A stretch of DNA of 64,000 bases, from the NCBI GenBank assembly GCA_910573755.1, contig CAJTBO010000010.1:86304-150303 (forward strand), given 5' to 3'. Origin of the DNA: Lachnospiraceae bacterium (GTDB lineage Bacteria > Bacillota > Clostridia > Lachnospirales > Lachnospiraceae). This document shows positions 949-11,087 of this stretch, piece by piece. The notes under the pieces were generated by a model. The model ran no database searches and was not told the origin of the DNA. It was given only the letters and a program-made list of their open reading frames with translations. Positions within the stretch are counted from its first letter, which is position 1. Each line of letters opens with the position of its first letter. The position numbers and the translations under genes are program-made.

Positions 949-1533
949 TCAGATTGGGGCATTGCATTCCACGAAGCCGTTTACACCGGCACATAGAAGC
1001 TGGTTTGATATTTTTATCATTTCTTCCAAGGGGATTTTTTTCCCATCCGCTACCCACTGGCTATACATTTCCACAGTAGAGGTCTGGATGAAATGCAGCA
1101 GGATATTTTGTTTTGGCGGCTCCAGAAGCTGGAGCCATGCGGAGTTTTTCCAAGTGGAATTCATCACATTGCTGATCATCCTGCTCCGGATATACCCATA
1201 ATTTCCGCTGCAGGTGATTTTTTCGTAGACAGACCCTTTTTCTGCGGAATAGAGAAAAAATTCACGGTTGATCTTATCCAGGTCTTCCGGTATCCGGTAG
1301 TTTTTGATTCGTTCCAGATATTCTTCTATCATTACCCCCTGCAGCTCGGCGAGCAGGTCGTCAAGGACGGAATAATACCGGTAAAAAGTTTTTTTATTGA
1401 TCCGCGCCCTTTCGCAGAGTTCTTTGACCGTAATCTTTTCATAATCCATTTCACAGATCATATCTTCAAATGTTTTCTGTATGGCGTCTATTGTTTTCTG
1501 TACCCTCAAATCTTCTGTGCCGTTGATCAGCAT
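949..1533 (-). CDS. TetR/AcrR family transcriptional regulator
   Basis: A 194-residue DNA-binding repressor of the TetR fold. The N-terminal helix-turn-helix is at about residues 30-60 (ITVKELCERARINKKTFYRYY region), followed by an all-helical, unassigned ligand domain. The start chosen is the second ATG of an ATG-AAA-ATG pair, because an AGGAGG lies 8 nt before it; an upstream in-frame ATG at 1584 has no comparable site. It is transcribed away from the truncated MATE gene at 1721, and a palindrome in the shared intergenic region is its likely operator. TetR regulators next to MATE pumps commonly repress them in response to a pump substrate; the ligand is unknown. Confidence 0.85.
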   Translation of the reverse strand: MLINGTEDLRVQKTIDAIQKTFEDMICEMDYEKITVKELCERARINKKTFYRYYSVLDDLLAELQGVMIEEYLERIKNYRIPEDLDKINREFFLYSAEKGSVYEKITCSGNYGYIRSRMISNVMNSTWKNSAWLQLLEPPKQNILLHFIQTSTVEMYSQWVADGKKIPLEEMIKISNQLLCAGVNGFVECNAPI

Positions 1534-1611
1534 TTTCATTACCTCCTTGGGATTTGTGCAACCTTTTTGCGGGAAGTGTGGCATAACTCACTTTATCAGA
1601 AAAAGCGTCCA

Positions 1612-1671
1612 TTGTTTTTGCTTCCCGATACGGATATAATAAACTGTACAGAGATAAGCAACTTGAGTTGC
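1612..1671 (+). promoter_or_regulatory. Promoter plus palindromic operator for the MATE/AKR transcript
   Basis: A sigma-A type promoter can be read as TTGTTT (1612-1617), a 17-nt spacer, and TATAAT (1635-1640). Just downstream, GCAACTTGAGTTGC (1658-1671) is a perfect inverted repeat with 6-bp arms and a 2-bp centre, sited where a bound repressor would block transcription. On the other strand TTGCTT and TTATAT, 16 nt apart, can serve as a divergent promoter for the TetR gene, so one operator could control both directions. The repressor-operator pairing is inferred from position. Confidence 0.55.
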
Positions 1672-1720
1672 ACAATATAAGAATATCACAGATAAATAAA
1701 AAAGTCAAGGAGGTCTATAT

Positions 1721-2119
1721 ATGGCAGAAAAAACAGTAACCGCGGAATTAAGCAGAAATGCCGGAGATGAAACCGCAGCGGAAAATGAGATGGGGACGCT
1801 TCCCATAGGAAAACTTTTAAGGAAGATGTCCCTGCCGTTGATCATCTCCATGCTTGTGCAGGTTTTGTATGGGCTTGTGGACAGTATGTATGTGGCAAGG
1901 CTTGGCGATTCTGCATTAACGGCAATCTCCCTTTGTATGCCCGTCCAGTATCTGGCTGTCGGCATTGGGATTGGGCTTGGTGTGGGCGTTAATTCCGTAT
2001 TGTCAAAAAAACTTGGAGAAGGGGATAAACAGGGGGTAAACCGTGCGGCGGGAAAGCGGATGGAAAGTGGTATATCAAACGCAGAAGGACAACATTCCTT
2101 ATTACTGATAAACGTGTGA
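1721..2119 (+). pseudogene. Truncated MATE family efflux transporter (N-terminal quarter only)
   Basis: The first ~108 codons encode a clear MATE (NorM/DinF-like) N-terminus: an acidic leader, the segment PLIISMLVQVLYGLVDSMYV and the conserved GLGVGVNSVLSKKLGEGD loop. Homology stops near position 2045. The frame then runs through about 24 unrelated codons to a stop at 2119. MATE proteins have about 450 residues and twelve membrane helices, so over three quarters is missing and no remainder is found nearby. A strong site (AAGTCAAGGAGG) precedes the start, so the fragment is probably still translated. The deletion brings the AKR cluster directly under the former pump promoter; no terminator is visible between them. 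Confidence 0.8.
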
Positions 2120-2149
2120 TGAATGAAAAAATTTAAGGAGGTATTTGGG

Positions 2150-3205
2150 ATGATGAAAAAAATCAGTATTTTCTTCCTGGCGCTTATTCTTATATTCAGT
2201 ATGGCCGGATGCGGTGCGGAAAGTGATCCACAGATGTCAGGACCGGCAGGCCATGTGGAATCGGAAACAGATACAGAACCGGCAGATATCACGGGGGCGG
2301 ATGAAACAGAACTTCCTTCTGATGCAGACACGGAGGATATAACAAATGATAAGGAACCGGCGGGGGAGGCCGGGGCATTTGACCTTGAGCAGGGTACAGT
2401 CCTTTTGAACAGCGGATATGAAATGCCGATCCTTGGTATCGGCTGTTTCAGGCTTTCACAGGAAGAGGCGGAAAACTCTGTCTATTGGGCACTCCGTGAC
2501 GGATACCGCCTGATCGACACGGCCCGGATATATGGAAATGAAGCCGGCGTTGGGCGTGGGATACAGAGGGCGATTGATGAAGGCTTTGTAACCAGGGAAG
2601 AAATCTTTGTAACGACCAAGATGTGGACAGATGATTACGATGACGGGGCAGCGGCAGTTGATGCATCCCTTGACAGGCTTGGACTTGATTATATCGACCT
2701 TATGATCCTCCACCACTCACAGCCGGAAAACGATGTGGAGGCATACCAGGCAATGGAACAGGCTGTTGCAGATGGGAAACTGAAATCCATCGGGCTGTCC
2801 AATTACTATGAGCCGGAGGACTTTGACCGTCTGGTGAATGCGACGACAATCGTCCCGGCACTGATCCAGAACGAAACGCATCCATACCATCAGAGTATGG
2901 AGATGAAGGAGCATATTGCCCAGTACGGGACGGTCATGGAATCCTGGTTCCCATTGGGCGGAAGGGGAAATACACAAACACTTTTTCATGATGAAACCAT
3001 CAGCAGCATAGCCGAAGCGCACGGCAAGACTTCCGCACAGGTTATCCTGCGCTGGCACCTGCAGGCGGGTAATATCGCAATCCCCGGATCAAGCAATGAG
3101 GCGCATATCCAGGAAAACTTTGAGATTTTTGATTTTGAATTATCGGAGGAAGAAATGCAGAGGATGACGGATATTGACAAGGACCAGAGATTTGCGGGTT
3201 ATTGA
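2150..3205 (+). CDS. Lipoprotein aldo/keto reductase
   Basis: A 351-residue protein with a lipoprotein signal (charged MMKK, hydrophobic core, lipobox SMAGC with Cys21), an acidic Glu/Asp/Thr-rich linker to about residue 80, and a complete aldo/keto reductase barrel to the end. The catalytic tetrad is intact: Asp123, Tyr128, Lys157 and His188. The barrel closely resembles the cytosolic reductase at 4829-5683, including the tail pattern IFDFELSEEEM. AAGGAGG at 2135-2141 lies 8 nt before the first of two adjacent ATGs, which fixes the start. An NAD(P)H-dependent enzyme anchored outside the membrane is odd, because the cofactor is cytosolic. Either another donor reduces it, the signal is not cleaved, or it acts in a different way. 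Confidence 0.85.
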   Translation: MMKKISIFFLALILIFSMAGCGAESDPQMSGPAGHVESETDTEPADITGADETELPSDADTEDITNDKEPAGEAGAFDLEQGTVLLNSGYEMPILGIGCFRLSQEEAENSVYWALRDGYRLIDTARIYGNEAGVGRGIQRAIDEGFVTREEIFVTTKMWTDDYDDGAAAVDASLDRLGLDYIDLMILHHSQPENDVEAYQAMEQAVADGKLKSIGLSNYYEPEDFDRLVNATTIVPALIQNETHPYHQSMEMKEHIAQYGTVMESWFPLGGRGNTQTLFHDETISSIAEAHGKTSAQVILRWHLQAGNIAIPGSSNEAHIQENFEIFDFELSEEEMQRMTDIDKDQRFAGY

Positions 3206-3218
3206 TAGAGGGGGCGGC

Positions 3219-4187
3219 ATGAAGACAAGATTATTAAGGGATATTGAAGTATCCGAGGTCGGCATGGGATGCATGGCGTTTTCCCACGGCTATGGGCAGA
3301 TACCGCCGGAGGAATACAGTGTGGAAGCGATCCGGAACGCCTGCCGGAACGGATGCACATTTTTTGATACCGCGGAAATCTACAGCCCGAACCTTTCCGG
3401 CATTGGGCATAATGAACGCATTGTGGGAAAAGCGCTGCATGGTGTAAGGGAACAGGTGGTGATTGCCACGAAGCTGTTCTTAAATGGATTTGAAGCGATT
3501 GGAAGGGGCTCTGTTTATAATGCAGTCCGCAGACATTTGGAAGGCTCGCTAAAGCGGCTTGGGACGGACTGGGTGGACATATATTATCTCCACAGAATGG
3601 GCGGCGTGTCCGTGGAGAAGATTGCGGAAGCTATGGGCAGGCTCATGGAGGATGGACTGATCCGTGGTTGGGGACTGTCGCAGGTAGATGTACCTGTTAT
3701 TAAAAAGGCGAACAGGGTGACGCCGCTCTCGGCAATCCAAAATATTTATTCCATGGTAGAGCGGGACGCGGAACAGTGTGTAATCCCTTACTGTCTGGAG
3801 AACAACATCGGCTTCGTCCCGTTTTCACCGATTGCCAGCGGGCTTCTTTCCGGGAAGATTACGGTGGACACACAATTTGAGAGGCATGATGATGTCAGAA
3901 ACTGGGTTCCGCAGCTTTCCAAAGCAAACATAGCGGGCAACCAGCCAATCATTGACCTTTTGAAAAAATATGCGGAGATGAAAAATGCGACCAGCGCACA
4001 GATTTCCCTGGCGTGGATGCTGCACAAATATCCAAATGTAGTCCCAATACCGGGTTCGAAAAATAAGGAGCGCATTGTTGAGAATCTGGATGCGTCCAAA
4101 GTGGAGCTGACAGACGAAGAGTTCCGCTCTCTGGAGGAAGCGCTGGATGGGTGCAGGGTATATGGCCACCGGGGATTTCACAGGTAG
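3219..4187 (+). CDS. Aldo/keto reductase (cytosolic, larger-loop subfamily)
   Basis: A 322-residue NAD(P)H-dependent carbonyl reductase with tetrad Asp50, Tyr55, Lys85 and His125. The motifs DTAEIY, ATKLF, YYLHR and the C-terminal VPIPGSKNKERIVENL cofactor loop are all present. It resembles the YajO/Tas-like or AKR11/13 type rather than its two neighbours of the 2,5-diketogluconate reductase type, so it is not a recent duplicate of them. It starts 13 nt after the lipoprotein AKR stop, behind a G-rich site (GAGGGGGC), and so is co-transcribed. The substrate is unknown. Confidence 0.88.
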   Translation: MKTRLLRDIEVSEVGMGCMAFSHGYGQIPPEEYSVEAIRNACRNGCTFFDTAEIYSPNLSGIGHNERIVGKALHGVREQVVIATKLFLNGFEAIGRGSVYNAVRRHLEGSLKRLGTDWVDIYYLHRMGGVSVEKIAEAMGRLMEDGLIRGWGLSQVDVPVIKKANRVTPLSAIQNIYSMVERDAEQCVIPYCLENNIGFVPFSPIASGLLSGKITVDTQFERHDDVRNWVPQLSKANIAGNQPIIDLLKKYAEMKNATSAQISLAWMLHKYPNVVPIPGSKNKERIVENLDASKVELTDEEFRSLEEALDGCRVYGHRGFHR

Positions 4188-4189
4188 CG

Positions 4190-4228
4190 GCCGACTGCGG
4201 CAGTTTTATAAAAACTGCCGCAGTCGGC
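4190..4228. other. Perfect 18-bp stem hairpin between AKR and flavodoxin genes
   Basis: An uninterrupted inverted repeat has 18-nt arms (GCCGACTGCGGCAGTTTT and its complement) and a 3-nt loop, directly after the AKR stop codon. No T tract follows on the plus strand, so it is not a canonical terminator. It may act as an mRNA stabiliser, a partial terminator or an attenuation element inside the cluster. Confidence 0.6.
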
Positions 4229-4277
4229 GGATAAGAAATTTTAGACAGGTAAGAAAATAAAAGATGGAGGTATTGCC

Positions 4278-4796
4278 ATGAAAAAAGTGTTGATCGCTTA
4301 TTTTTCCCACGAGGGAGAAGCCTATGTGGGAGGGAAAATTGTAAAATTGAAAATCGGAAATACAAGGGTTGCGGCACAGATGATCCATGGATTGACAGGC
4401 GGGGATGTATTCCGCATCGAAACGGAGAAACCATATCCGGATGACCATATGGAAACCGTAGAGCTGGCAAAATCCGAGCAGAATGCGAAAGCGCGCCCAG
4501 TATTGAAAGCGGATGCCCTGAAAATGGATGCCTATGATACTGTGATTCTAGGTTACCCAAACTGGTGGGGAACCTGCCCAATGGCTGTGTTCACGTTTTT
4601 GGAGGGGCATGATTTCTTTGGAAAGACAATCCTTCCTCTGTGTACCCACGAAGGCAGCGGCATGGGACGCAGCGAGGCAGATATCCAGGCAGCCTGTCCC
4701 GGCGCAAAGGTAGAAAAAGGGCTGGCGGTCACAGGAGGCAAGGTGGCACAGGCGGAGAATGATATTAGGAAATGGCTGGAGCGGTATGGATTTTAA
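4278..4796 (+). CDS. Flavodoxin (flavodoxin_4-like), cytosolic
   Basis: A 172-residue flavodoxin-fold electron carrier or quinone/nitro-reductase-like protein. It opens with the strand VLIAYFSHEG and has the second FMN-binding element GYPNWWG followed by PLCTHEGSG, typical of the flavodoxin_4 group. There is no signal sequence. The first phosphate loop is longer than in standard flavodoxins because of an insert (EAYVGGKIVKLKIGNT). The start is supported by GGAGG 7-8 nt upstream. It sits between AKR genes and is probably part of the same operon, downstream of the hairpin at 4190. A paralogue lies at 5823. Confidence 0.85.
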   Translation: MKKVLIAYFSHEGEAYVGGKIVKLKIGNTRVAAQMIHGLTGGDVFRIETEKPYPDDHMETVELAKSEQNAKARPVLKADALKMDAYDTVILGYPNWWGTCPMAVFTFLEGHDFFGKTILPLCTHEGSGMGRSEADIQAACPGAKVEKGLAVTGGKVAQAENDIRKWLERYGF

Positions 4797-4828
4797 TAGA
4801 TAGCAGATTAGGAATGGAGGAAATCAAA

Positions 4829-5683
4829 ATGAATCAGACTTATGTAACTTTAAATGATGGAAACAAAATCCCTCAATTTGGTCTTGGCGTATATATGATT
4901 CCGGGGGATGAAAACACGAAGGCGGCGTGTATGGAGGCTTTTCGCGCAGGCTACCGTCATATTGATACGGCCCATGCTTACCAGAATGAGCGTGGAGTTG
5001 GGGCTGCCATAAAAGAAAGCGGTATTCCCCGTGAAGAAATCTGGATTACCACAAAGCTCTGGCCCAGCGAGTATGGGGAGGGAAAGACGGTAGCAGCGAT
5101 TGACAAAATGCTTTCCCGGCTGGATACGGGGTATATTGACCTGCTTTTGCTTCATCAGCAGTTTGGGGATTATATCGGGGCGTGGAAAGATATGGAAAAA
5201 GCTGTTGCTGCAGGCAAGGTGCGATCCAGCGGTATCAGCAATTTTGAATCGGAGCGTCTGGAAGAACTGCTTGCTGCTGCAACAATTAAGCCTTCGGTGC
5301 TTCAGGTAGAGTGCCATCCGTATTATCAGCAGAATGAATTGAAAAAACGCATTGCATCCTGTGGCACGGTGATTGAAAGCTGGTATCCTATCGGGCATGG
5401 GGACAAGGGGCTTCTGAATGAGCCGGTGTTTACCGAACTTGCGGAAAAGTATGGGAAGAACAATGTACAGATCATCCTGCGCTGGCATATCCAGGAGGGA
5501 ACAATTGTATTCCCGAAGTCTACCAATCCGAAACATATTCAGGATAATATTGACATATTCGACTTTGAATTGACTGAGGGTGAAATGGAACGCATACGGG
5601 CTTTGGATAAAGGAGTGCGTTTCTTTAACATGAGCCTTGAAGAGCAGGAAGCCCATCTGAGTGCGTTTACGCCTGCGGATTAA
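4829..5683 (+). CDS. Aldo/keto reductase, 2,5-diketogluconate reductase type
   Basis: A 284-residue cytosolic aldo/keto reductase with tetrad Asp46, Tyr51, Lys76 and His109 and the usual C-terminal loop (PKSTNPKHIQDN). It is the soluble counterpart of the lipoprotein AKR at 2150; both share ESW(F/Y)P and an IFDFEL tail. An ATG at 4772 would overlap the flavodoxin stop, but GGAGG 7 nt before 4829 and the family-typical start (MNQTYVTLNDGNKIP) favour the start given. Small aldehyde or ketone reduction with NADPH is the family activity; the actual substrate is not known. Confidence 0.9.
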   Translation: MNQTYVTLNDGNKIPQFGLGVYMIPGDENTKAACMEAFRAGYRHIDTAHAYQNERGVGAAIKESGIPREEIWITTKLWPSEYGEGKTVAAIDKMLSRLDTGYIDLLLLHQQFGDYIGAWKDMEKAVAAGKVRSSGISNFESERLEELLAAATIKPSVLQVECHPYYQQNELKKRIASCGTVIESWYPIGHGDKGLLNEPVFTELAEKYGKNNVQIILRWHIQEGTIVFPKSTNPKHIQDNIDIFDFELTEGEMERIRALDKGVRFFNMSLEEQEAHLSAFTPAD

Positions 5684-5698
5684 AAAAGAGGTGATATC

Positions 5699-5822
5699 AT
5701 GGAATTAGAACGAATCAATATGCGGGACGAAAGCTATCAGGCTTCCGTCCAGGAAATCCACAGGTGTGGAAAACTTTGCTTTCATATCAATCAGACGGAA
5801 CCCCATTCTGAGGAAGGAAGAA
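5699..5822 (+). other. Unassigned leader reading frame before second flavodoxin
   Basis: An ATG at 5699 with GAGGTGATATC before it opens a frame beginning MELERINMRDESYQASVQE that runs out of frame into the flavodoxin and stops at 5917 with no recognisable domain. It may be the remnant of a gene whose body was lost, or an upstream peptide whose translation overlaps the flavodoxin start. I do not recognise it. Confidence 0.3.
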
Positions 5823-6377
5823 ATGGACACCGATTCCGACAGCAAAGCGGAAGGAAACTCTATTTTGGTGGCGTATTTTTCCCTTGCAGGGGAGCAGTAT
5901 GGGGTGGGCGTCATTGAGGAAGGCAATACCGCTGTTATTGCGAAAATGATTGCAGAGCAGACAGGGGCAGATGTATTTGAGATTGAAGCCGTAAATGCTT
6001 ACCCTGAAACATACGATGGACTGCTGGATGTTTCCCGGCAGGAAATGTCAGATAATGCCCGTCCTGAAATCGCTGGCATGGTGGATAATATGGAGGATTA
6101 CGATATTGTCTTTGTAGGTTATCCGAATTGGTGGAGCGATATGCCGATGATCGTCTACAATTTTTTGGAAAGCTATGATTTTTCCGACAAAACGGTAATT
6201 CCATTCTGTACGCATGGAGGCAGCGGATTGTCTGGCGCGGAAAGCACGATTGCGGACATTACGGGAGCCGAAATGATGGATGGCTTTGACATTGCCGGCG
6301 AGGCGGCGCAGAACCAGCGGGACAAAGCGGGCGAAGCAGTGACGGAATGGCTGCGGGAAGGTGGTTTTATTGAGTAA
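5823..6377 (+). CDS. Flavodoxin (flavodoxin_4-like), second copy
   Basis: A 184-residue flavodoxin-fold protein with ILVAYFSLAGEQYGVG as the phosphate-loop strand, GYPNWWSD as the second FMN element and PFCTHGGSG, all parallel to the copy at 4278. It begins with a polar acidic stretch (MDTDSDSKAEGNS) like the linkers behind lipoboxes in the neighbouring lipoproteins, yet no signal peptide precedes it in frame. It may derive from an exported flavodoxin that lost its signal. The start was chosen for GAGGAAGGA just upstream; a GTG at 5766 is an alternative. Its end overlaps the start of the next gene. Confidence 0.82.
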   Translation: MDTDSDSKAEGNSILVAYFSLAGEQYGVGVIEEGNTAVIAKMIAEQTGADVFEIEAVNAYPETYDGLLDVSRQEMSDNARPEIAGMVDNMEDYDIVFVGYPNWWSDMPMIVYNFLESYDFSDKTVIPFCTHGGSGLSGAESTIADITGAEMMDGFDIAGEAAQNQRDKAGEAVTEWLREGGFIE

Positions 6378-7371
6378 AAATAAGCAGGCAAAGAAATGCG
6401 GTATTTGTGTACTGATAATGTCTGCGATACTTTTGACATTTTCCGCCTGCGGCACTTCGGAAAAGAGGGATCAGAAGGAGCCGGTATCTGATACGGCAGG
6501 GTTTTCTGATGTGGAAAGCATTCATCAGGAAACTGCTGATGCGGAATCGGAAACGGAACAATTACAGTCCGATACAACAGAGATTAAGCTGACCTTTGGG
6601 AATGAAATTGTTTTTGCAATGATGGATAACAGTGAAACGACAAAAGCATTTTTAGAATTGCTTCCTCTGACGCTTTCCATGAACCGTTATGGAGATCGGG
6701 AATATTATGCTCCTGTCTCGGAACTGCCGGAAAACGGAGAGGATATTCCAGATTTTGAAAATGGGGACATTACTTATTTTATGTCAGGAAAATCCCCCGC
6801 TATTTTTTTCGGAAATGAAGGGAATTCCAGTCAGGGCGGTCTGATCCGTATGGGGAAGATTGCTTCGGATTTAAGTGTATTTGAGACAATGGAGGACAAT
6901 GTATCCGTGACGGTTGAAATCGCAGACAGGCAGGAAGGAGAAGTTATGCAGGAATATGATTTTTCTGTTTTTGATAATGTGGAACTGATCGGAGTGGATC
7001 TGTCTGCCATGAGCAGGGAGCAGGTGGAAGTCCTCTACCAACAGGCGAGGTATTGCCAGGCAATGACCGATGCGGATATTGATACCATGCGGGAACTTGT
7101 GCCGGAGGACATGACCTTTACGCATATGAGTGGCAGACAGCAGACGCGGGAAGAATATTTTGCGGATGTGGAGGATGGCAGTCTCCGGTATTTTACGATT
7201 GGCATTGATTCCCCGGTGGTGGAAGTAGACGGATATACTGCCTCTGTCACGTATACTTCGGTATTGAATGCCAATGCTTATGGTGCAAGGGGAACTTACC
7301 GCATGACTGGAACACACTGGTTCGAAAAATGGCAGGACAAATGGTTTCTCAGTAACGCACCTGACGAATAG
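6370..7371 (+). CDS. Lipoprotein with cyclophilin-like and NTF2-like domains
   Basis: A 333-residue lipoprotein with lipobox FSAC (Cys27) and an acidic linker to about residue 70. A cyclophilin-like fold domain follows, with hallmark (I/M)MDNSETTKAFLELLPLTL and a later GGLIRMGKI strand. The last ~115 residues look like an NTF2/SnoaL-type cone domain (ARYCQAMTDADIDTMRELVPEDMTF to GTHWFEKWQDKWFLSNA). I propose a TTG start at 6370, 6 nt after AAGGTGG; GTG 6361 is the alternative. It overlaps the flavodoxin end by 8 nt, which suggests coupled translation. Such cyclophilin-like domains often neighbour flavodoxins, but the reaction is not established. Location: outer face of the membrane. Confidence 0.75.
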   Translation: MSKNKQAKKCGICVLIMSAILLTFSACGTSEKRDQKEPVSDTAGFSDVESIHQETADAESETEQLQSDTTEIKLTFGNEIVFAMMDNSETTKAFLELLPLTLSMNRYGDREYYAPVSELPENGEDIPDFENGDITYFMSGKSPAIFFGNEGNSSQGGLIRMGKIASDLSVFETMEDNVSVTVEIADRQEGEVMQEYDFSVFDNVELIGVDLSAMSREQVEVLYQQARYCQAMTDADIDTMRELVPEDMTFTHMSGRQQTREEYFADVEDGSLRYFTIGIDSPVVEVDGYTASVTYTSVLNANAYGARGTYRMTGTHWFEKWQDKWFLSNAPDE

Positions 7372-7381
7372 GAGGTGCAGT

Positions 7382-8107
7382 ATGAGCTTACCGAAAACGA
7401 CCGATAAGAAGGAAGTATATTTTAAGAAAAGAAAACAGGCTGTGTGTATGCTGGCGGATGTAGGCATGACGGGCTTGATTCCCCTGCTTATGGCTTATTC
7501 CCTGATTGGGGAGGCTGTGCATGAATGGATGGGTATTTTCATGTTCCTGCTTTTTATCCTGCACCATGTATTAAATTTTTCGTGGTACAGAAATCTGTTT
7601 CGGGGGCATTATTCCGTTTCCCGCATATTGAAGACGATATCCGCTCTGTTTTTGATCCCGGTTATGCTGGCTTTGCCGGTCAGTGGGATCATGATGTCCC
7701 GTCATATATTTCCGGGTTTGGGCAGCAGTTTATCTCTTGTGCGGACAGTGCATCTTTTCGCCTCCTATTGGGGATTTGTACTTATGTCGCTGCATATAGG
7801 GCTTCACTGGAGGATGGCTGTCGGTATGACAGGAAACTTATGTGGCAGGAAGAAAATAGGCAGGACTGGTATTCTCCTGCTTCGTATTGCGTTTCGGCTT
7901 ATAGCACTGTATGGAGTTTATGCGTTTGTCCGCAGACAAATTGGCTCTTATATGTTTCTTCAAAACCAGTTTGTCTTTTTTGATTTTGGGGAACCCCGCA
8001 TTTTCTTTTTTATGGATTATCTTGCGGTGATGTGTTTGTTTGCGGTATGCGGGTATTATGCCGTAGGTGGGGCAGCACTGCTGGAGAAAAGGAGAAAAAG
8101 GGCATGA
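7382..8107 (+). CDS. DUF4405 membrane protein (cytochrome b-like, six helices)
   Basis: A 241-residue membrane protein with six predicted helices, starting at about residues 20, 43, 77, 112, 160 and 203. Histidines lie within or at the ends of helices (HEWMG, ILHHVLNF, VRTVHLF, SLHIGLHW), as expected for the DUF4405/flavinylation-associated cytochrome family, which is thought to bind haem and pass electrons across the membrane. It starts 10 nt after the lipoprotein gene behind AGGAGG and overlaps the next gene by 4 nt. In this cluster it is the only obvious route for electrons between cytosolic flavodoxin/AKR partners and the exported lipoproteins. That role is inference. Confidence 0.75.
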   Translation: MSLPKTTDKKEVYFKKRKQAVCMLADVGMTGLIPLLMAYSLIGEAVHEWMGIFMFLLFILHHVLNFSWYRNLFRGHYSVSRILKTISALFLIPVMLALPVSGIMMSRHIFPGLGSSLSLVRTVHLFASYWGFVLMSLHIGLHWRMAVGMTGNLCGRKKIGRTGILLLRIAFRLIALYGVYAFVRRQIGSYMFLQNQFVFFDFGEPRIFFFMDYLAVMCLFAVCGYYAVGGAALLEKRRKRA

Positions 8108-8904
8108 AAAGAATACTTGTTTTAAGCATGGCTATGCTGGCGGTACTTTTATTTACAGGGTGTGCGGGTGGAAATGGTGCAGATTCGCATATGGAAGGAA
8201 CACAGCAGATGGAATCGTCAGCCTCGGAAACGCCGGGCGTGGATTCTGATGATACAGAATCCTCACAAAATGAGCCGGAAACGGATGGAGCAGACCGGGC
8301 GGTTTTGCTTTATCAGGGACAGGCAAGCATCCGTATTGTTACGGCGGAGGGAAAGGTTATTTATGTTGATCCTTATGCGGGGGATGATTATGAACTTTCT
8401 GCGGATTTGATTCTGGTAACACACCCGCATTATGATCACAACATGGTTGATAAAGTGCAGAACCGGAATCCAGGCTGTGAGATCATCACGCAGGACGAGG
8501 CAATCCAGAATGGAGAACACCAGATATTTGACCTGGGCTATGTGACAGTGGAGGCGCTAGAAGCAGGCTATAATTCCCTGCATGATGTGAGTGATTGCGT
8601 AGGCTACATACTGACTTTTTCTGATGGAAAGTCTGTCTATGTGACAGGCGATACATCAACCACAGAGCAGATGCCGCTGCTGGCAGAAAAAAACATTGAT
8701 TATGCTTTTTTCTGTTGTGATGGAATTTATAATATGGGACTTGACGAAGCTGCGGAATGTGCGGAATTGGTTGGGGCAAAGCATAATATTCCCTACCATG
8801 TAACAGCTAAGGAGGGCGTTGTGTTTGACAGGGAACTGGCGGAGCAGTTTGAAGCGCCAGACCGTTTGATTGTGGAAGCTGGGGAAGAAATTGTAATTGA
8901 ATAA
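8104..8904 (+). CDS. Lipoprotein metallo-beta-lactamase-fold hydrolase (UlaG/YtkL-like)
   Basis: A 266-residue lipoprotein: lipobox FTGC with Cys20, a Ser/Glu/Asp-rich linker to about residue 62, then an MBL-fold domain. The metal site HxHxDH is present as HPHYDHN, followed by VYVTGDTS (bridging Asp) and a C-terminal PYHVTAKEG His. The subfamily resembles UlaG-type lactonases and other generic MBL hydrolases. The ATG overlaps the stop of the DUF4405 gene (ATGA), indicating translational coupling. It is the third lipoprotein in this operon, so at least part of the pathway is extracytoplasmic. The substrate is unknown. Confidence 0.82.
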   Translation: MKRILVLSMAMLAVLLFTGCAGGNGADSHMEGTQQMESSASETPGVDSDDTESSQNEPETDGADRAVLLYQGQASIRIVTAEGKVIYVDPYAGDDYELSADLILVTHPHYDHNMVDKVQNRNPGCEIITQDEAIQNGEHQIFDLGYVTVEALEAGYNSLHDVSDCVGYILTFSDGKSVYVTGDTSTTEQMPLLAEKNIDYAFFCCDGIYNMGLDEAAECAELVGAKHNIPYHVTAKEGVVFDRELAEQFEAPDRLIVEAGEEIVIE

Positions 8905-8932
8905 AACTTATGGAACGAATGGAGGAAACGCA

Positions 8933-10039
8933 ATGAAAAAATTTGGTTTTGGATTAATGAGGCTGCCCGTGGTAAATGGAAATTACAGTGAGGTGGATAT
9001 TCCGAAAATGACGGAAATGGTGGAGGCTTTTCTCGAAGCAGGCGGCACATACTTTGACACGGCATATCCGTATCATGGCGGCAGTAGCGAGAAAGCGTTC
9101 CGGGAAACCGTGGTAAAACGGTATCCGAGGGAGCGTTTTACCATTACGGATAAGATGCCGGTTTACATGGTACAGAAAACGGAACAGATGCAGGGGATAT
9201 TTGAAGAACAGCTAAACCGGTGCGGTGTGAAGTATTTTGATTATTACTGGCTCCATGCACTGGCTGGCACCAACTATGAGAATGTCCAGAAAGTAGGGGC
9301 ATTTGATTTTCTGGTACAGAAAAAAGAAGAAGGGAGAATCCGTCATATCGGTTTTTCTTTTCATGACTCGCCGGAACTTCTGGAGCGCATATTGAAGGAT
9401 CATCCGGAAACGGAATATGTGCAGCTTCAGTTGAATTATCTGGATTGGGACGATGCCGCGCTCCGGGCGAAGGAATGCTATGAGATTGCCACACGGCATG
9501 GCAAGCCGGTGATCGTGATGGAACCGATCAAAGGGGGTGCGCTTGCAAATATCCCGGAGAAAGCGGACGAGATATTGAAGGCACAGACACCGGGACTTTC
9601 TACGGCATCGTGGGCAATCCGTTTTGCAGCCACTCATGAAAATGTGATGATGGTACTTTCAGGGATGAGCAATATGGAACAGGTTGAGGATAACTTAAGC
9701 TACATGAAGGATTTTAAACCTTTGAGCGAAGCAGAAATGAAAGCATTGAAACAGGCTGCAGATATTATCCGTTCCGGGATTGCGATTCCTTGTACGGCTT
9801 GCAGATATTGCATCAGTGAGAGTGAATGCCCGAAGAATATTGCGATTCCGGATTATTTCGCATTATACAACGATAATAAAAATTTTAAGGGGATGGTATC
9901 ATCCATCTATTATAACAATCTGGCATTGACACACGGAAAAGCGTCGGAGTGCATCGGCTGTGGAAAATGCGAAAAACATTGTCCGCAGCATTTGCCGATC
10001 CGGGAATATTTAAAGGATGTAGCAGAAGTGTTTGGCTGA
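8933..10039 (+). CDS. Aldo/keto reductase with C-terminal 2x[4Fe-4S] ferredoxin domain
   Basis: A 368-residue fusion: an AKR barrel (residues 1-275; DTAYPYHGG, TDKMP, YWLHAL, MEPIKGG) and a C-terminal iron-sulfur domain. The latter has two Cys clusters, CTACRYC...ECP and CIGCGKCEKHCP, suited to two [4Fe-4S] centres. The family is widespread in anaerobes as putative ferredoxin-linked oxidoreductases. GGAGG 6 nt before the ATG sets the start; an earlier start at 8897 would overlap the MBL gene. It closes the redox cluster and offers a way to exchange electrons between ferredoxin and NAD(P)H or the flavodoxins. Confidence 0.9.
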   Translation: MKKFGFGLMRLPVVNGNYSEVDIPKMTEMVEAFLEAGGTYFDTAYPYHGGSSEKAFRETVVKRYPRERFTITDKMPVYMVQKTEQMQGIFEEQLNRCGVKYFDYYWLHALAGTNYENVQKVGAFDFLVQKKEEGRIRHIGFSFHDSPELLERILKDHPETEYVQLQLNYLDWDDAALRAKECYEIATRHGKPVIVMEPIKGGALANIPEKADEILKAQTPGLSTASWAIRFAATHENVMMVLSGMSNMEQVEDNLSYMKDFKPLSEAEMKALKQAADIIRSGIAIPCTACRYCISESECPKNIAIPDYFALYNDNKNFKGMVSSIYYNNLALTHGKASECIGCGKCEKHCPQHLPIREYLKDVAEVFG

Positions 10040-10262
10040 TAATAGCTAAATAAACAGGATTATAAAAATGTAATTATGCTTTGGTATGTTCTGAATGGAG
10101 GAGGTGGTAACATCAGCCGTGTATTAATTATTGAGTCCAATGAAGGAACCTTCTATATTTCTGTACCGTGTTGACCATGTGGACAAAGCAACGATAAGTT
10201 GTTTGGTTTTATCCGTGCAGACGGTCTGGATGTGATTGAAAAAATCCAGATTATATGGTAAT

Positions 10263-11087
10263 ATGGAGATACGAAAACAGGCGGGAAAGCAGGTGGAAAG
10301 ATTGACAGTGACGGATAAGCAACATCAGGAAGATTTGCAGCGTTTGCGTTTGTTAAGGCCAATCGATGATGATTTTATGCGTTGTCTTTTTAAAGATAAC
10401 ATTCCATTAGCTGAATTTGTGTTACGCATTATCACTGATAAACCTGATTTAATTATTACTGAGTGTGAAACACAGAAAGATATGAAAAGATTGGCTGGGG
10501 CACGTTCTATCTGCTTGGACGCATATGGAACGGATTCAGATGGGAAAAAATATGATTTAGAAGTCCAGAGGCAGGACAAGGGAGCAGACCCACACAGGGC
10601 AAGATATCATTCAAGCGTAATGGATATAGAAAATCTCCATTCTGGTCAGGAATTTAAAGAGTTGCCGGACACATATACAATTTTTATTATTGAAAAAGAT
10701 TTTTATGGTCAGGGCGAAGCTGTTTACCCGATTGAGAGAATCAATCTTGCAACGGGTAAATCTTTTGAAGATGGGGAGCATATCCTTTATGTGAATGGTG
10801 AATATCGTGGAGAATCCGATATAGGAAAACTCATGCACGATTTTAATTGTACCAAAGCAGATGATATGAATTTTGAATTGATGGCAAACCGAACACGATA
10901 TCTAAAAGAGAATCCGAAAGGAGTGAGTGAGATGTGTAAAATTATGGAAGATATGAGAATTGAATCTTTAAAAGAGGTTGCACTTCGTATGCTGGCAGCT
11001 GGAAAATATGCTCTGGAAGAAATTGCGAGTATTTCTGGACTTTCTCTTGATGAAGTAAAGAAATTGAAAGCCGAAAGAACAGTGTAA
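10263..11087 (+). CDS. Rpn family PD-(D/E)XK nuclease / putative transposase
   Basis: A 274-residue Rpn-type protein. RPIDDDFMRCLFKDN opens the domain, and DAYGTDSDGKKYDLEVQRQD carries the Asp...Glu-x-Gln core of the PD-(D/E)XK fold. FKELPDTYTIFI and EHILYVNGEYRG follow, then a helical tail ending in a short helix-turn-helix-like segment (ALEEIASISGLSLDEVKKL). Rpn proteins promote RecA-independent recombination in E. coli; that is family knowledge. The start is uncertain: ATG 10263 has no good ribosome site, and TTG 10302 behind AGGTGGAAAG is equally possible. A broken relative lies at 11942-12437. The 220 bases upstream hold no recognisable gene, only frames that look like remnants. Confidence 0.85.
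   Translation: MEIRKQAGKQVERLTVTDKQHQEDLQRLRLLRPIDDDFMRCLFKDNIPLAEFVLRIITDKPDLIITECETQKDMKRLAGARSICLDAYGTDSDGKKYDLEVQRQDKGADPHRARYHSSVMDIENLHSGQEFKELPDTYTIFIIEKDFYGQGEAVYPIERINLATGKSFEDGEHILYVNGEYRGESDIGKLMHDFNCTKADDMNFELMANRTRYLKENPKGVSEMCKIMEDMRIESLKEVALRMLAAGKYALEEIASISGLSLDEVKKLKAERTV

Follow-up and report, generated by a model that had tools for sequence, protein, structure and literature searches.

A DUF4405 cytochrome, flavodoxins and predicted exported aldo/keto reductases in a candidate transmembrane redox island of a Lachnospiraceae genome

Introduction

The question raised by this locus is whether a run of neighbouring redox genes forms one electron pathway across the cell membrane and whether that pathway could serve enzymes on the cell surface. 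The window analysed here is a 64,000-nucleotide stretch of a Lachnospiraceae bacterium genome (assembly GCA_910573755.1, contig CAJTBO010000010.1, positions 86,304 to 150,303). Its island at 2150–10039 encodes four aldo/keto reductases (AKRs), two flavodoxins, a DUF4405 membrane protein and two further lipoproteins. An earlier note, made from the letters alone, had read the island as a partly exported transmembrane redox unit. Recurrence in other genomes supports this reading, except that the flavodoxin at 5823 is predicted to be no longer exported in this copy. Judged from gene neighbourhoods, DUF4405 with an exported flavodoxin is the supported core, and the predicted exported AKR is a new element of the island which belongs to a well-supported clade and is often fused to flavodoxin. 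Whether the island as a whole carries electrons across the membrane to redox enzymes at the surface is, in our estimate, an evenly balanced call.

Genes of the island

All nine same-strand open reading frames (ORFs) were found where the earlier note had placed them, and Pfam matches agreed with the products described. The relatives named below, L048 to L052, are five of the 80 DUF4405 loci sampled in this work; they carry the same island, with most genes at 89–100% protein identity. Their records are titled Lachnospiraceae or “Bacterium”, and the style of the names points to a possible origin in mouse gut.

2150–3205, + strand, lipoprotein AKR of the exported AKR clade (PF00248, 3.5e-44; lipobox MAGC; branch support 100/97)
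3219–4187, + strand, AKR without leader (PF00248, 1.2e-66)
4278–4796, + strand, Flavodoxin_4 without leader (PF12682, 1.7e-26)
4829–5683, + strand, DkgA-type AKR without leader, outside the exported clade (PF00248, 1.5e-45)
5823–6377, + strand, Flavodoxin_4, lipoprotein leader lost, predicted cytosolic here (PF12682, 1.9e-29; lipoprotein versions in L048, L049 and L051)
6370 (TTG) or 6361 (GTG) to 7371, + strand, lipoprotein with Cyclophil_like2 and DUF4440 (PF18050, 8.9e-22; PF14534, 3e-12)
7382–8107, + strand, DUF4405 six-helix membrane cytochrome (PF14358, 3.5e-11; putative haem ligands His47, His61, His124 and His138)
8104–8904, + strand, MBL-fold lipoprotein, Lactamase_B_3 (PF13483, 1.4e-11)
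8933–10039, + strand, AKR fused to a 2x[4Fe-4S] domain, AKR-Fd (PF00248, 2e-43; PF13187, 1.7e-8)

The three lipoproteins of the earlier note (AKR, cyclophilin-like and MBL) all have lipoboxes, read by eye as MAGC, FSAC and FTGC. The touching gene ends it described hold for most junctions, but gaps of 90 bp (4188–4277) and 139 bp (5684–5822) interrupt the run. A strong hairpin at ~4189–4229 (−38.2 kcal/mol, z −8.0), which falls in the gap that follows the second AKR, was considered as a conserved terminator and rejected, as by eye it is missing from L048, L049 and L051. The proposed pairing of the AKRs at 4829 and 2150 stands in that one is leaderless and the other a lipoprotein; they fall, however, in separate branches of the AKR tree and so are not a recent duplicate pair.

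Recurrence of DUF4405 with flavodoxin

A scan with a five-row DUF4405 alignment was used to collect loci, and the best 80 of 199 confirmed loci, with their record titles, were annotated with home-made profiles seeded partly from these same loci, five of which are near-copies. All 80 had a DUF4405 call, and neighbours were counted within five same-strand genes of it. A flavodoxin was found at 68 of the 80 loci, a lipoprotein flavodoxin at 57 and an AKR at 43. Flavodoxins account for 151 of the 723 near genes, but for 10 of the 417 far genes, defined as those eight or more genes away in the same loci; for AKRs the counts are 58 of 723 and 14 of 417. As background, of 120 family genomes 79 have at least one Flavodoxin_4 match, and most of these have between one and five. 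Other neighbours were LysR (28 loci), CMD (24), FGE-like (23), MATE (21), cyclophilin-like (19) and DUF362 (16), while MBL (6; the five close relatives and L055), AKR-Fd (5; the close relatives) and apbE (4) were scarce. As a whole, the Cyclophil_like2 plus DUF4440 lipoprotein is rare, with matches in 40 of 200 family genomes, mostly to one domain.

The earlier note had reasoned that recurrent co-occurrence in distant genomes would support a unit. Such recurrence was seen for DUF4405 with flavodoxin, and with AKR as a further member, within Bacillota and some Pseudomonadota; the exact composition of the island is narrow, as the counts for AKR-Fd and MBL indicate. As a separate observation, an FGE-sulfatase-like domain is fused to an exported flavodoxin in 22 ORFs of the loci (e.g. 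L120:3254-4768).

The diverged locus L055, from a Clostridia metagenome-assembled genome with an isolate name that points to rabbit, is, at the level of sequence, the best single argument that the parts form one unit. Its products are identical to those of the window at 52% (TetR), 82% (leaderless AKR), 73% (lipoprotein-type AKR), 72% (flavodoxin), 56% (cyclophilin-like plus DUF4440), 47% (DUF4405) and 60% (MBL). The flavodoxin, cyclophilin-like and DUF4440 domains are there joined in one 552-aa protein with a lipobox, and a free 2x[4Fe-4S] protein directly after DUF4405 matches the tail of the window AKR-Fd (30% over 94 aa, 4e-11). In the lipoprotein-type AKR of L055 (3469–4626), a linker repeat accompanies a frame break, and the leader lies in another frame than the enzyme.

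Among nine DUF4405 neighbourhoods chosen for reading, four have a flavodoxin at or near DUF4405, in Pseudosulfitobacter and Citrobacter and, where it is annotated as a short protein, in Salmonella and Pasteurella. The Pseudosulfitobacter plasmid carries LysR, a twin-arginine flavodoxin, a leaderless AKR, cytochrome P460, DUF4405, an AKR and a hydrolase, and Citrobacter has the order flavodoxin-DUF4405-cupin-CMD, with a flavinylation-type motif in the flavodoxin (by eye). An Achromobacter plasmid encodes an AKR, a twin-arginine flavodoxin, an AKR and a cupin; the Priestia DUF4405 neighbourhood has neither flavodoxin nor cytochrome P460. Cytochrome P460 adjoins DUF4405 in L180, L182, L183 and L189 (Pseudosulfitobacter and rhizobial plasmids), where it may replace flavodoxin as the exported partner.

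The exported AKR clade

When the lipoprotein AKR was searched against 295 genomes of the order, 127 had matches, and 27 stretches were taken. Among the matches listed, most are short leaderless AKRs and the best relatives have long frames. Flavodoxin and AKR are joined in 14 ORFs from 12 genomes (in the L144 ORF a stop interrupts the AKR part), and Pfam, run on eight of the 14, gave both domains in all eight, with part of the flavodoxin in L132. Pfam also gave Cyclophil_like2 with AKR in two proteins and Cu_amine_oxidN1 with AKR in one, and a Flavodoxin_4-Cyclophil_like2 fusion was found too. Three flavodoxin-AKR fusions bear SLH or Big_2, which are extracellular-type domains. An export leader was read by eye at the start of 12 of the 14 fusions, one of them twin-arginine (L147); of the two without a visible leader, L151 runs off the contig and L132 has its front part out of frame. 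Phylum-wide, a near full-length fusion occurs in at least 4 of 398 genomes at 64–71% identity, and six further phylum loci all have, by eye, a lipoprotein-like leader and the same loop as described below.

In a tree of 58 AKR domains, from which the fragments L144:7271-7927 and L158:64-576 had been dropped beforehand, 33 of the 36 N-extended rows fall in one branch (support 100/97) together with one short row, and the remaining three represent a second origin. The residues D, Y, K and H, which we take to be the catalytic tetrad, are kept in all 36 N-extended rows, and S, Q and W, presumably nicotinamide-side residues, in 35. A K in P-K-[S/T], or a K/R after PGS, is found in none of the 36 N-extended rows versus 21 of the 22 non-extended rows. 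We assume this loop to be the one that holds the 2′-phosphate of NADPH; two solved relatives, when aligned, have PK[T/S] at the NADPH-phosphate loop position.

The exported clade is thus like the DkgA/YvgN-type AKRs (PF00248; 1vp5, 3o0k, 1a80) in family, tetrad and nicotinamide-side residues. It is unlike them in that its members are predicted lipoproteins or exported by another route, with fusions to flavodoxin or cyclophilin-like domains outside the window genome, and in having PGS[S/T/G/Q] in place of PK[S/T]. The AKR at 2150–3205 itself keeps the tetrad, lacks the basic residue of the 2′-phosphate loop (PGSSNEAH) and, rather than being cytosolic, has a lipoprotein leader in the window and in L048–L052 by our own lipobox rule. 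A second lipoprotein AKR of the same genome (46%) lies beside an FMN_red-type gene. No publication on exported AKRs, flavodoxin-AKR fusions or the gene set was found among the matches listed from the open-access literature. On an IMG/VR contig (L159:1-2584), a serine recombinase gene (Resolvase plus Recombinase) adjoins a gene for a lipoprotein-type AKR (86% identity). The contig edge falls within the AKR, and the frame begins there; this AKR gene may be an integration site for a prophage.

DUF4405 (E ≤ 1e-10) was detected in 9 of 22 exported-AKR genomes versus 35 of 273 others (Fisher p = 0.0018; 8 of 21 and p = 0.0052 without the window genome). The test is rough, since the 22 genomes were picked by hand among the matches listed, and not all of the nine DUF4405 matches are complete. 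Exported AKR, DUF4405 and lipoprotein flavodoxin share one stretch in L048, L049, L051, L099, L126, L134, L137 and L156, with the AKR on the other strand in L126; L055 shares the trio, but with its AKR frame break. By these comparisons the predicted exported AKR is tied to flavodoxin by fusions; its tie to DUF4405 comes from some shared loci and from a modest association across genomes.

DUF4405 and known systems

The four putative haem ligands of DUF4405, His47, His61, His124 and His138, are kept in 80/80, 80/80, 81/81 and 81/81 alignment rows, respectively, and the structural model has six long helices (pLDDT 88.8). The upper VIA-align rows for this model include formate dehydrogenase gamma and cytochrome b561, but ion channels score alike, and a designed protein is also among the rows. 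According to the text of Huang, Meheust, Barquera and Light (2024, PMC11334425), DUF4405 cytochromes with exported Flavodoxin_4 are a published system, and haem b binding was measured for an Oscillospiraceae DUF4405. The statement of the earlier note that it knew of no described system was therefore too strong. As far as that text describes it, the island resembles this system in its six-helix DUF4405 with four conserved His and, in L048, L049 and L051 and not in the window, in the clustering of DUF4405 with an exported Flavodoxin_4. It differs in that no apbE lies in the island, the sole one found in the genome being on contig C2, and in that both window flavodoxins lack a flavinylation-like motif. 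The words “aldo”, “cyclophilin” and “lipoprotein” do not occur in the main text of PMC11334425.

In the five close relatives, no lipoprotein flavodoxin bears a flavinylation-like motif. The strict motif D..[ST]G[AS][ST] was found in 0 of 178 flavodoxin ORFs, and a rule widened after inspection of the inserts picked out 25 of the 104 lipoprotein flavodoxins encoded at the 80 loci versus 0 of 44 short ones without lipobox, a weak control because 31 of those 44 (and 11 of the 104) were unclassable by the rule. In the Listeria system of flavin-based extracellular electron transfer, as described in PMC9973259, extracytosolic flavin proteins likewise get electrons from inside, but an ApbE-like enzyme links the flavin to them covalently; “aldo-keto” has no occurrence in that paper. 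The cyclophilin-like lipoprotein matches TM1367-like proteins (2nnz, 2ka0, 1zx8) weakly over Cyclophil_like2 (E 2e-6 to 1.1e-3). Unlike these solved proteins, which are titled hypothetical or uncharacterized, it is predicted to be exported and has DUF4440; its model (mean pLDDT 49.1) was not used for fold search.

Damage in the window copy and flanking features

Compared with L049, the window lacks ~1.47 kb in and after the MATE gene and ~0.61 kb (~610 bp) before the second flavodoxin. Three further features flank or interrupt the island:

949–1584, − strand, TetR-like regulator, divergent (PF00440, 23.2 bits, just below the cut-off of 24)
1721–2119, + strand, MATE transporter gene remnant, 3′ part deleted, junction ~2049–2055 (PF01554, 4.7e-15, first half of profile)
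5699–5817, + strand, 5′ remnant of what in relatives is a hexapeptide acyltransferase gene (alignment to L049 and L051)

The TetR-like gene is 98–99% identical in L048–L052. The MATE remnant directly precedes the first AKR, and the MATE gene is full-length in all five relatives. The second deletion removed most of the acyltransferase gene (in relatives a member of the hexapeptide cluster, c10) together with the flavodoxin leader, and joined the remnant to the flavodoxin at 5823. The linker-like start of this flavodoxin, from which the earlier note had taken it as an exported partner, is the lipoprotein linker left after the leader was deleted; the same protein carries leader and lipobox in L048, L049 and L051. 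The surface branch of the window copy is thus predicted to be broken unless another flavodoxin serves.

Lesions occur in four of the six close copies, that is, in the window and in L050 (flavodoxin 1/2 hybrid region, shortened MBL), L051 (frame break in the cyclophilin-like gene) and L052 (flavodoxin 1/2 hybrid region, truncated cyclophilin-like and DUF4405 genes); none was seen in the listed genes of L048 and L049. The genome holds two further DUF4405 loci (L129:9064-10921 and L130:10974-11968), both broken. On contig C16 a broken DUF4405 adjoins another AKR-Fe-S gene, 24% identical to the window AKR-Fd, and on contig C4 a truncated DUF4405 adjoins an intact lipoprotein flavodoxin, in the order LysR, MerR, flavodoxin, DUF4405, MATE, flavodoxin, AKR.

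Some observations concern the flanks. A 6-bp inverted repeat with a 2-bp centre lies at 1658–1671, in the gap that separates the TetR gene from the MATE remnant, and is a possible TetR operator. A gene that runs on in L048, L049 and L050 (124–159 aa; Trans_reg_C in L048) is cut in the window, where its 5′ part at 10076–10146 is followed by a PDDEXK_2 gene at 10236–11087 (junction by eye). The ORF at 3–605 resembles a transposase by eye; Pfam gave no family and the name was not used. Another MBL lipoprotein adjoins the flavodoxin-AKR ORF of L132. No plasmid or phage copy of the island was found when 949–10039 was searched by megablast against both collections.

Discussion

The electron line that we consider for the island would begin with a cytosolic Fe-S donor, perhaps AKR-Fd, which would reduce the two-haem DUF4405. 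DUF4405 would pass electrons to the FMN of lipoprotein flavodoxins outside the membrane; these, with the cyclophilin-like/NTF2-like lipoprotein, would supply the exported AKR, and this enzyme would reduce a carbonyl-type compound at the cell surface. The sequences themselves show the gene anatomy, the leaders for export, the pattern of four His, the repeated clustering, the fusions of domain pairs and the clade of exported AKRs; which way the electrons run, what donates them, that flavodoxin feeds the AKR and what the AKR reduces are our inferences.

Several results weigh against such a line. The donor step is weak. At 6 of the 80 loci a 2x[4Fe-4S] protein is encoded no more than three same-strand genes from DUF4405, and such proteins are not enriched there, with 6 among 453 near genes and 6 among 417 far ones; AKR-Fd was rejected as a general DUF4405 donor and is retained as a guess for this island. 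Foldseek of the DUF4405 model gave no match at E ≤ 0.001, and with the fold comparison indecisive the haem role rests on the published measurement for another DUF4405. At twelve of the 80 loci a flavodoxin is missing from the five same-strand genes on either side, and at least four of the twelve lie close to a contig end; three of the four rhizobial neighbourhoods read have an annotated cytochrome P460 instead. In Pseudosulfitobacter, the AKR next to the flavodoxin is leaderless. DUF4405 of this kind was not detected in 13 of the 22 exported-AKR genomes, so that the exported AKR does not strictly need it, and was found in 0 of 13 stretches with a flavodoxin-AKR ORF, several of which are short contigs. 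Export calls were made with our own lipobox rule and by eye rather than with a trained predictor. Lastly, the lesions in the window copy and in three of the five close relatives suggest that the system may be dispensable.

Other explanations, not all of which exclude one another, account for parts of these data. The exported flavodoxin might itself be the terminal reductase, acting in respiration or detoxification on external quinones, nitro compounds or other acceptors, with the AKRs separate. The pair of DUF4405 and lipoprotein flavodoxin is the most constant one, the further exported partner varies (FGE-like, cyclophilin-like, cytochrome P460), and lipoprotein AKRs are only 7 of 88 AKR genes in the loci, five of them from the close relatives; yet leader-bearing flavodoxin-AKR and cyclophilin-AKR fusions in several families tie the AKR to flavodoxin, and we regard this explanation as unlikely. 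More improbable still is a stress cassette against electrophiles or xenobiotics, in which regulated, independent oxidoreductases and an efflux pump would share no electron line. TetR/LysR/MerR, MATE, CMD, cupin and several AKRs do recur in variable composition, and the hairpin could split transcription in the window copy, but a lipoprotein flavodoxin adjoining a haem cytochrome and the fusion of exported domains are hard to fit to it.

The damage itself could mean that the island in this lineage is a decaying insert without present function, as the two deletions, the other lesions in L050, L051 and L052 and the broken state of both other DUF4405 copies would suggest. We think this rather doubtful, because TetR, the four AKRs, both remaining lipoproteins and DUF4405 are still open in the window and 89–100% identical to those of L048, L049 and L051, and an intact lipoprotein flavodoxin remains on C4. 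A further possibility, about as doubtful, is that the exported AKRs use NADH or act as nicotinoproteins; a bound nicotinamide re-reduced by flavodoxin would account for an enzyme that lost NADPH-phosphate recognition and kept its nicotinamide pocket. The near-complete retention of S, Q and W, set beside the missing basic residue of the phosphate loop, fits this, and the twin-arginine leader of the L147 fusion could carry a bound cofactor across. Most leaders, however, look Sec-type, exporting unfolded proteins, and the roles given to these residues are carried over from AKR structures.

AKRs are normally treated as cytosolic NAD(P)H enzymes. Lipoprotein or surface-anchored AKRs fused to flavodoxins imply another source of hydride, or a bound nicotinamide, outside the cell. 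We tentatively suggest, at somewhat less than an even chance, that an extracellular class of Bacillota AKRs gave up cytosolic NADPH and is fed by a fused or partner FMN flavodoxin through DUF4405 or another cytochrome. If so, carbonyls would be reduced at the surface by the cell's own electron pool with no export of NADPH. DUF4405 cytochromes would gain candidate partners open to ordinary biochemistry, as single-chain flavodoxin-AKR fusions exist, and gut Clostridia could draw on electrons from the cytosol to reduce carbonyls of dietary, host or drug origin at the cell surface.

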